Positions 27,266-28,686 of a DNA stretch of 64,000 nucleotides are shown piece after piece. The stretch lies in the NCBI RefSeq assembly GCF_900046455.1, contig NZ_FCOT01000011.1:310001-374000 (forward strand), written 5' to 3'. The stretch comes from Cellulomonas timonensis (GTDB lineage: Bacteria > Actinomycetota > Actinomycetes > Actinomycetales > Cellulomonadaceae). The stretch's first letter is position 1, and each line of letters starts with the position of its first letter. Under the pieces are notes generated by a model, which had not been told where the DNA came from, searched no databases, and saw only the letters and a program-made list of their open reading frames with translations. The position numbers and the translations under genes were made by a program.

Positions 27266-27281
27266 TGTGATCTGCGTCACA
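27266..27281. promoter_or_regulatory. CRP/GlxR-like binding site
   Basis: TGTGATCTGCGTCACA is a perfect TGTGA-N6-TCACA palindrome, the consensus for CRP and the actinobacterial GlxR/Crp proteins. It lies about 150 bp upstream of the riboswitch promoter candidate. The window contains no CRP gene. Confidence 0.65.
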
Positions 27282-27439
27282 ACAGTATGGCCTGAGTGGC
27301 GAATGTGCGCCACCGTGTGCTTATTGCGAGCGGCGCGGTCCCGTCTGTCCGTTTGGTCCGACTGGGTGATTTGGACGGCTGTTCACCACTCGTTCTTCGA
27401 AACGCTTCCATCCGCATCTCATCCTCGTCTAATGTCGCA

Positions 27440-27520
27440 TCTGTCAGCGAACAGGCAAACCCTCCGCAAGGAGGGGACGCAAAGCCACGGGACCCCAGAG
27501 GTCAGCCGGGCTACCGAACG
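27440..27520 (+). promoter_or_regulatory. cyclic-di-GMP-I (GEMM) riboswitch
   Basis: The hallmark conserved blocks occur in order: AGGCAAACC at 27453-27461; a P2 stem CCCTCC/GGAGGG closed by a GCAA (GNRA) tetraloop at 27460-27475; GACGCAAAGCC at 27476-27486; a short P3 stem GACC/GGTC; and GCCGGGCTACCG at 27505-27516. This is the c-di-GMP class I aptamer architecture. A -10-like TAATGT (27430-27435) lies just upstream. No intrinsic terminator is seen between the aptamer and the ORF start at 27535, which favours control of translation. Confidence 0.9.
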
Positions 27521-27534
27521 ACAGGACAGATTCC

Positions 27535-27711
27535 ATGGACCAGCGCGGACCCCTCGGCCCCTACGAGCCGGCCGATGCCGACGTCACCAGCCTCGACCAG
27601 CAGCCCGGCGCCGTCGCCGGACGACTGCAGGCCTGGGCGCGCATCGCCTCAGCCCGCTCCGCCAGCCTCGATTTCGCGCCCTCGCAGCGCAACTACGTCA
27701 GCCTCGCCTGA
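27535..27711 (+). CDS. 58-residue protein under riboswitch control
   Basis: ATG 27535 lies 18 nt after the last conserved riboswitch block, with AGGA about 8 nt upstream as ribosome site. The product is 58 residues, hydrophilic, with an N-terminal Asp/Pro/Gln-rich part (DQRGPLGPYEPADADVTSL) and a short amphipathic helix (VAGRLQAWARIASARSASL). It has no signal or membrane segment. Function not recognised. Its position directly behind a c-di-GMP sensor is the main evidence that it is a real gene. Confidence 0.7.
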   Translation: MDQRGPLGPYEPADADVTSLDQQPGAVAGRLQAWARIASARSASLDFAPSQRNYVSLA

Positions 27712-27808
27712 CCGTCGAAAGGCGCCCGCGCCCGGGCTCCCGTCTCGTACGCTGAGATGACGAGAGAGTCCGGTTCTGCTCGCATCGTCGAGATCCGCGG
27801 GGGCTGCC

Positions 27809-28219
27809 ATGGCGAAGGTTGTCATCACCGTCGCGCTGGGCGCGCTGGCCCTCGCCGCCCAGGCCTGGATCGGCCTCTCCGCCCGATGGATCGTGCCGTA
27901 CGAGCTCGCGGCCCTCGTCCTGGTCATGCTCGGCTTGGGCTGCACAACGGCCTACAAGGCGCGCAAGCGCGGCATGCGCGTGGCGCACACACTGCGGCCC
28001 GACGGGCCTGAGTTCGACGCCCTCCAAGATGACTTCCTGGGACGCGTGCGGACGTCCTCGCCAGCAGGAATGCACCCAGGGCCCGTCGCCACCCGGGTCG
28101 AGAGCCATGACGACCCCGACGGCGACCTGATCGAGCGTCGACTCCAGCGCCCGCCCACCGCGCCCGGATCAGGCCAGGATGACCCGCTTCGAGGGGACGT
28201 GCGCGGTACGCGCGCCTAG
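27809..28219 (+). CDS. small membrane protein of unknown function
   Basis: This 136-residue protein has two predicted membrane segments near the N-terminus (VVITVALGALALAAQAWIGL and VPYELAALVLVMLGLGCTT), followed by a basic cytoplasmic stretch (KARKRGMRVAHTLR) and a disordered polar tail. Starts upstream are less likely; GGGGGC precedes ATG 27809. It lies 97 bp after the riboswitch ORF and could share its transcript, but no coupling is visible. Confidence 0.6.
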   Translation: MAKVVITVALGALALAAQAWIGLSARWIVPYELAALVLVMLGLGCTTAYKARKRGMRVAHTLRPDGPEFDALQDDFLGRVRTSSPAGMHPGPVATRVESHDDPDGDLIERRLQRPPTAPGSGQDDPLRGDVRGTRA

Positions 28220-28302: not shown

Positions 28303-28686
28303 ATGGAGTGGGACAGCGTGTGGGACTTCCTGTGGATCGCGATCTGGGTCTTCTTGTTCGTCGTGTACATCATGATCCTGTTCCAGATCCTGGCGGACCT
28401 CTTCAGAGATCGTGAGCTCAACGGCTGGTGGAAGGCGCTGTGGATCATCGGGCTGGTGATCTTCCCGTTCCTGACTGCGCTGCTGTACATCATCTTCCGC
28501 GGGACGGGCATGGCCCACCGGCAGGCCGAGGCCGCCCAGCAGGCGCGGAAAGAGACCGACCAGTACATCAAGCAGGTGGCCGGCCGATCACCCGCGCAGG
28601 AGGTCCAGCACGCCAAGGAGCTCTATGACGCGGGCGTGATCGACGACGCGGAGTTCGCGCAGCTCAAGGCGAAGGCGCTCGCCTGA
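28303..28686 (+). CDS. PLDc_N/SHOCT-domain membrane protein
   Basis: This protein has 127 residues from ATG 28303. The N-terminal two-helix membrane module (FLWIAIWVFLFVVYIMILFQILADLF and WWKALWIIGLVIFPFLTALLYIIFRG) matches the PLDc_N family. The C-terminal SHOCT motif (LYDAGVIDDAEFAQLKAKAL) is a short domain at the ends of many bacterial membrane or phage-related proteins. A G-rich ribosome site lies 4 nt upstream; an in-frame ATG 21 nt earlier has none. Confidence 0.88.
   Translation: MEWDSVWDFLWIAIWVFLFVVYIMILFQILADLFRDRELNGWWKALWIIGLVIFPFLTALLYIIFRGTGMAHRQAEAAQQARKETDQYIKQVAGRSPAQEVQHAKELYDAGVIDDAEFAQLKAKALA

Follow-up and report, generated by a model that had tools for sequence, protein, structure and literature searches.

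The window analyzed here, a stretch of 64,000 nucleotides from Cellulomonas timonensis, was found to contain what is likely a single-gene unit, in which a c-di-GMP riboswitch would gate the translation of a small motif protein and probably turn it OFF. The proposed mechanism begins at a promoter whose -10 region would end about 10 bp before the aptamer, so that the RNA would begin at the aptamer itself. The aptamer is predicted from its sequence to bind c-di-GMP, and its putative closing helix P1 adjoins (and in the window overlaps) the ribosome-binding site, an arrangement in which the ligand would most likely shut translation down. The 58-residue product would most likely bind a partner protein within the c-di-GMP programme. 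In the genus, a Crp/GlxR-type site further 5′ probably contributes cAMP-linked transcriptional control.

c-di-GMP riboswitches are commonly viewed as controlling surface structures, motility or turnover enzymes. Here, such a riboswitch is tied to an orphan protein with an invariant P-x-Q in 105 genomes, and also to bldC. As the microprotein gene is small and easily deleted, it offers a handle on actinobacterial c-di-GMP physiology. No description of it was found in the open-licence literature on c-di-GMP-I-GGC and on Cellulomonas with c-di-GMP riboswitches, which is weak evidence of novelty; in the accessible parts of two papers c-di-GMP-I-GGC figures in lists of models (PMC12452182, PMC9943018).

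The c-di-GMP-I-GGC aptamer and its targets

The aptamer lies at positions 27446-27519 of the forward strand and belongs to c-di-GMP-I-GGC (RF03167, clan CL00126), the sole Rfam 15 family to exceed its gathering score when the entire window was searched with cmscan. The match spans model positions 1-80, that is, the full model, and scores 60.8 bits (E 6.8e-12) against a gathering cut-off of 59, a thin margin of 1.8 bits. An earlier note on this DNA had described a clear GEMM-I aptamer and proposed an Infernal scan with the covariance model, a poor score counting against it. The kind was correct, with the element assigned within Rfam to the GGC variant, and the score cleared the cut-off. The aptamer sits in the 5′ leader of a 58-aa ORF on the same strand, with the ATG 15 nt further on.

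A second RF03167 copy (64.2 bits) was found in the same genome (4.06 Mb), and all seven genus genomes carry at least one. In the family, RF03167 is present in 116 of 221 genomes and in 7 of 25 genera; it was found in none of 14 control genomes. A class-wide sample of 394 genomes contained 49 with a match at E<=0.001, and in 12 the match exceeded the cut-off.

To describe the targets, 162 riboswitch loci were taken mainly from the best-scoring among the matches listed. All but two of these (L067 and L139), 160 in total, were classified by their first ORF with the help of word patterns and a simple rule for calling ORFs. This ORF was bldC in 61 loci, a short ORF in 71 and a longer protein in 28, the last including, by eye, secreted, EAL-like and response-regulator-like products. 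Of the short-ORF loci, 65 belong, by our reading, to the microprotein family described below, and six (L012, L054, L106, L111, L120, L149) were excluded by eye. In other families of the class, 14 of 27 RF03167 loci were readable by the search pattern (the remaining 13 were not), and where an ORF was found its product is pilin-like or secreted. Genes resembling those of type IV pilins (GFTLIELLVVIIIIGILAAIAIP) were seen about 75-90 nt 3′ of the riboswitch at L255, L256, L265-L267, L270 and L275. The window element has the aptamer sequence and structure of the c-di-GMP-I-GGC class and stands directly 5′ of a start codon, but its target is an orphan protein, whereas the readable targets elsewhere are pilin-like or secreted.

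A microprotein family behind the aptamer

The gene behind the aptamer (27535-27711, forward strand) encodes 58 amino acids and ends in a C-terminal P-x-Q motif, here A-P-S-Q-R. The micro-ORF that the earlier note had placed there was thus confirmed at 58 codons. The 65 short-ORF loci of the family correspond to 59 distinct proteins, and profile A1 was built from 53 of the 59 then known; it matches the window ORF with E 4.4e-16, the window sequence itself belonging to A1. Conservation of the ORF, which the earlier note had also suggested examining, extends well beyond the genus. At E<=1.4e-4, a limit of our own choice, A1 gave 107 matches in 105 of the 221 family genomes (one genome per species), confined to five genera, each with the riboswitch, and all 105 genomes are also on the RF03167 genome list.

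An aptamer was found directly 5′ of all 107 matches, in 64 cases by the classifier, in 40 by motif and in 3 by coordinates. The first 64 were already in the riboswitch-selected set and 43 lay outside it. Among the latter, an aptamer core stood just 5′ at 40 of 40 loci retrieved by protein position (a motif match with no covariance score), and the remaining three matches (in G147, G068 and G014) adjoin listed aptamers. The next matches beyond the limit (1.7e-4) are in G124 and G105, and a weaker one, L162 (0.0022), has an aptamer. At E<=0.1 the profile reached 162 of 221 genomes, mostly by chance. The best microprotein match in the genus member G002 is only 0.094. The microprotein gene occurs twice in G025 (L018, L028) and twice in G114 (L166, L191), every copy having a riboswitch of its own. 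In a search for relatives beyond the family, 10 of 394 class genomes had a match at E<=0.001, namely the genome of the window and nine weak cases, the best of which (9.9e-5) has an internal stop. No relative was found when the window protein was used as query against named genomes.

The family members are 38-66 residues long. P and Q of the P-x-Q are invariant in 91 of 91 distinct microproteins, [VIL]-P-x-Q is present in 89, a W in 85, and an A four residues after the W position in 87; the end motif is in frame in every microprotein ORF. The codon for the invariant P, compared among 101 distinct ORFs, is CCC (52), CCG (45), CCT (3) or CCA (1). Its third base varies, so that the amino acid rather than the DNA is conserved. 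For 41 disjoint pairs that differ by 3-35%, dN/dS was 0.36 as a whole, with values of 0.29 for the core, 0.21 for the helix and 0.11 for VPxQR. A less stringent selection of 50 pairs yielded 0.80, and within-genus pairs ranged from 0.12 to 1.42; the linker of the microprotein evolves fast, and substitutions are hard to count in GC-rich codons. The ratios of the 41 pairs indicate that the microprotein is under purifying selection. An ORF arising as noise was rejected because of the coupling to the aptamer, the conserved motif and purifying selection, and the 58 codons are very probably a real, previously undescribed small-protein gene under a c-di-GMP riboswitch, as judged from sequence comparison.

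Searches of Pfam, NCBIfam and PDB with the microprotein returned nothing above chance, the best E values being 0.014 (SH3_16, 2 of 53 members), 0.051 (1 member) and 1, respectively. No MerR or HTH_17 match was found among the 53 members at E<=1, where matches are at chance level only, such as one to Myb_DNA-bind_5 (E 0.22, 1 of 53). The LPFR motif small proteins (NCBIfam NF040918) are likewise small proteins named after a short motif, but only 1 of 53 microproteins matched that family, at chance level (E 0.069). An AlphaFold model made with nine sequences was of low confidence (mean pLDDT 63, pTM 0.29), the best part being a helix at residues 24-44, and no obvious membrane stretch was seen by eye. 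The protein would thus comprise an N-terminus that is probably flexible, a helix bearing R-x-x-x-W-A-x-[LI]-A, and the P-x-Q peptide at the C-terminus.

Putative promoter, leader and direction of the switch

Upstream of the aptamer, a putative -10 region TCTAATGT (27428-27435, forward strand) was identified from the conservation of TANNGT in relatives, and a putative -35 region CTTCCA (27405-27410, forward strand), 17 bp from TCTAAT, was recognized by eye here and in relatives. Motifs were counted in 98 distinct upstream sequences representing 105 microprotein loci, from which aptamers missed by the search pattern are absent; TAATGT is present in 44 and TANNGT in 77. In 73 of these 77, TANNGT lies 17 or 18 nt 5′ of the P1 core. 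From this position the RNA should begin at the aptamer, and we infer a start near 27440.

The predicted RNA then opens with a possible outer extension of P1. Its 5′ strand CUGUC (27441-27445, forward strand) can pair with GACAG (27520-27524), and this 3′ strand overlaps the Shine-Dalgarno sequence AGGA (27523-27526), the two together occupying 27520-27526 of the same strand. The outer P1 of the window is a 6-pair helix, one G-U included. When 27438-27560 was folded, the 5′ end paired with the next GACAGAU, in a neighboring register, and the fold of the window leader hardly beat shuffled sequences (z -0.98, with 35 of 200 equally good).

Because the P1 strand GACAG overlaps AGGA in the window, an OFF translational switch is preferred, and binding of c-di-GMP would, with somewhat better than even probability, turn translation of the microprotein OFF. 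The same single-gene unit could instead be switched ON, with c-di-GMP raising microprotein synthesis, a possibility that we rate as lower though still appreciable. The c-di-GMP-I riboswitches include ON switches, and other targets of this riboswitch are pilin-like and secreted proteins, for which a need would be expected when c-di-GMP is high. Moreover, outer P1 reaches at least 5 pairs in only 59 of 157 distinct flank pairs and stays below 5 in the other 98, leaving occlusion unproven; many microprotein loci with GAAGGA have an outer P1 of about 3 pairs. The ON direction is opposed by the window P1, which can cover the A, G and G of AGGA, and by the lack of any alternative anti-Shine-Dalgarno pairing seen by eye. 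The mean flank helix also argues against it, being 4.32 pairs compared with 4.04 in shuffled pairings and not reached in any of 300 shuffles, a small excess that relatedness may explain. The pattern used for the flank pairs missed 13 true aptamers (L006, L054, L065, L066, L078, L081, L095, L109, L142, L143, L146, L155, L205). That P1 occludes the ribosome site was rejected as a general rule, as only 59 of the 157 flank pairs reach 5 pairs; the OFF direction is put forward from the overlap in the window.

A further conserved element lies between the Crp-type box described below and the promoter. This is TCCGACTGGGTGATTTGG (27357-27374, forward strand), whose common form in the family is CCGAGCGGGTGAAA, as defined by motif counts and consensus. 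In the 98 microprotein upstream sequences GGGTGA was found in 95 and GGGTGAA in 87, compared with shuffle means of 7.8 and 1.8, and the window carries the variant GGGTGAT. Of the 87 GGGTGAA, 71 fall in the 5-bp bin at -85 relative to the aptamer. The reverse-oriented TTCACCC is present in 28 of 56 upstream sequences of bldC riboswitches (shuffle mean 0.7). A BldD site was considered for GGGTGAA and rejected: the BldD consensus is TNAC(N)5GTNA (PMC4151990), and by eye the GTGA half fits this form while the other half is mostly TCCG or CCG rather than TNAC.

Genes downstream of the microprotein

The riboswitch might serve a downstream membrane gene (the SHOCT gene at 28303 or the gene at 27809), the short ORF being a leader peptide or noise, and the earlier note had named read-through into the membrane-protein genes at 27809 as the outcome that would speak against its reading. 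This was not borne out. Neighbors were recorded for 103 loci (L204 and L209 were excluded from this ORF set), and the counts are lower bounds, the downstream DNA being short in many of them. The protein at 27809 was found downstream in at least 2 of the 103, the window counted, and a Rieske protein in at least 3. A SHOCT gene follows in at least 34, always co-directional and 116-952 nt from the microprotein stop, and could there be co-transcribed; the SHOCT gene is followed by an LPG synthase gene in all five named Cellulomonas loci that were examined (one with an extra gene between). An LPG synthase gene is present downstream in at least 49 loci, always on the opposite strand. In 38 of the 103 loci, this convergent gene is the next one recognized, at 8-303 nt and with no SHOCT match, and therefore a downstream gene is not the general target. 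In 11 of the 38 the gap is at most 31 nt, so that no other sense target is possible there.

Purifying selection on the peptide itself also argues against a downstream target, as do hairpins 3′ of the stop codon, which have a median of -33.1 kcal/mol in the 103 loci compared with -23.4 kcal/mol in shuffles (the shuffles preserved base but not dinucleotide content, and a slightly looser shape filter was used when folding). A threshold of -15 kcal/mol does not separate real (102/103) from shuffled (101/103) sequences. In the window, an imperfect hairpin at 27732-27773 (forward strand, -21.1 kcal/mol, no U run) marks a possible transcript end and is weaker than both medians. A downstream membrane gene was accordingly rejected as the general target in view of the variety of neighbors and the convergent LPG synthase, and we consider it very improbable that the riboswitch serves such a gene. 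The gene at 27809-28219 (forward strand) encodes a 136-aa putative membrane protein with no Pfam match.

BldC, the second main target

The 61 bldC genes among the 160 classified loci lie behind the same c-di-GMP riboswitch, and one of these loci is in the genome of the window (L001, G000:C13:296055-296129). The product of this second riboswitch gene of the genome has 76 aa and finds its best PDB match in 6ama (E 4.2e-27). The closest PDB chains, 6ama and 6amk, carry the label putative DNA-binding protein, and we take them to be BldC. The pairing of riboswitch and bldC suggests that c-di-GMP may act on a BldC-type regulator by way of RNA, in addition to the protein BldD, which is known from Streptomyces. 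No paper on BldC with riboswitch and c-di-GMP was found in the open-licence literature.

BldC and the microprotein share the riboswitch in front and the [VIL]PxQ tail, which was found in 89 of 91 microproteins, 48 of 48 BldC proteins and none of the 51 window ORFs that served as background. They differ in that the microprotein has no match to a winged HTH or MerR-type HTH. The common tail raised the question of homology, which was rejected: a comparison of the two profiles with hhalign gave a probability of 4.4%, leaving a shared short motif only.

Both genes have the riboswitch and, further 5′, a CGGGTGAAA element that is in reverse orientation at bldC, and both products have the VPxQ tail, which led us to consider that the microprotein might be a partner of BldC, or its antagonist, gated by c-di-GMP. 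We regard this as quite improbable, and any functional link between the two is speculation. BldC forms head-to-tail filaments whose interface includes Trp31 (PMC5859096), and bldC is among the BldD targets (PMC4151990). If a partnership did exist, the W-A helix and the tail of the microprotein might dock on the surface by which BldC assembles head to tail into filaments, and the pair of riboswitches would set the microprotein/BldC ratio that governs the BldC regulon.

A Crp/GlxR-type box in the genus

The box TGTGATCTGCGTCACA (27266-27281, forward strand) is the sole perfect TGTGA-N6-TCACA in the window, as the earlier note had observed; the shuffle mean for the window is 0.04, and at least one such box arose in 4 of 100 dinucleotide shuffles. 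Perfect boxes number 4-8 in each of the seven genus genomes, compared with 0-1 for the pattern read backwards. We assign this class of box, presumptively, to the actinobacterial Crp/GlxR regulon. The genome of the window encodes a CRP-like protein of 225 aa (L278, 1168-1845, reverse strand), whose PDB matches 3mzh (E 3.7e-81) and 4byy (E 3.9e-78) are both labelled CRP/FNR family; we take these to be M. tuberculosis CRP and C. glutamicum GlxR, respectively.

All six genus loci with the ORF have a perfect box, with four different N6 spacers among them. In G002, none of the four perfect boxes lies on a riboswitch-bearing contig. Perfect boxes were found in 7 of the 98 microprotein upstream sequences, namely the six genus loci and L138 from another genus; outside the genus, three further microprotein loci have the box with one mismatch. 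It is also perfect upstream of 2 of 56 bldC and 2 of 30 other riboswitch loci. In the seven perfect microprotein cases the box lies between -150 and -191 relative to the P1 core (between -168 and -191 within the genus), and in the window its center is about 166 bp 5′ of the predicted start, which is not a standard activating or promoter-overlapping position. The predicted site resembles the Crp/GlxR regulon in its perfect conservation within the genus and in the presence of a CRP-like protein in the genome, but differs in its distance from the predicted start and in being rarely perfect in other genera.

It is doubtful in our judgment that the box is merely vestigial or has another role, with c-di-GMP alone mattering. 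Its place near -166 and a spacing to the P1 core that does not keep helical phase from one species to another (-168 to -191 in the genus) would fit such a reading, but the box is perfect at six of six genus loci although the middle six bases differ, and only 4-8 perfect sites exist per whole genome. In the genus, a Crp/GlxR-type site probably adds cAMP-linked transcriptional control to the predicted riboswitch. The earlier note had suggested that cAMP and c-di-GMP may converge on the small protein. The conserved genus box, the CRP-like protein and the GGDEF matches (10 in the genome of the window, 9-38 in each of the seven genus genomes) speak for this, while the position some 166 bp upstream and the absence of the box from most loci of other genera do not; convergence of the two second messengers is plausible yet shown only in part.

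A possible flagellar connection

All seven genus genomes also have a perfect Crp-type box at a distance of about 1.2 kb from a gene for flagellin, and it may be asked whether the microprotein belongs to the flagellar programme only, the box being common to the fliA/flgN region. The co-occurrence of the two genes is in keeping with this: among the 221 genomes 82 have both microprotein and flagellin, 37 flagellin only and 79 neither. This co-occurrence is, however, confounded by descent, 23 genomes keep the microprotein with no flagellin match, and outside the genus the box is perfect at one microprotein locus (L138) and one mismatch off at three. A flagellum-only role, which is weakened by the 23 genomes, is in our view unlikely. 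In the genome of the window, a perfect box (L230, 2128-2143; G000:C12:402427-402442) lies between fliA-like and flgN-, flgK- and flgL-like genes, these names being our own reading. A box of one particular sequence, TGTGAACGTCTTCACA (G000:C9:88512-88527), recurs in five of the seven genus genomes (G000, G002, G003, G005 and G006).
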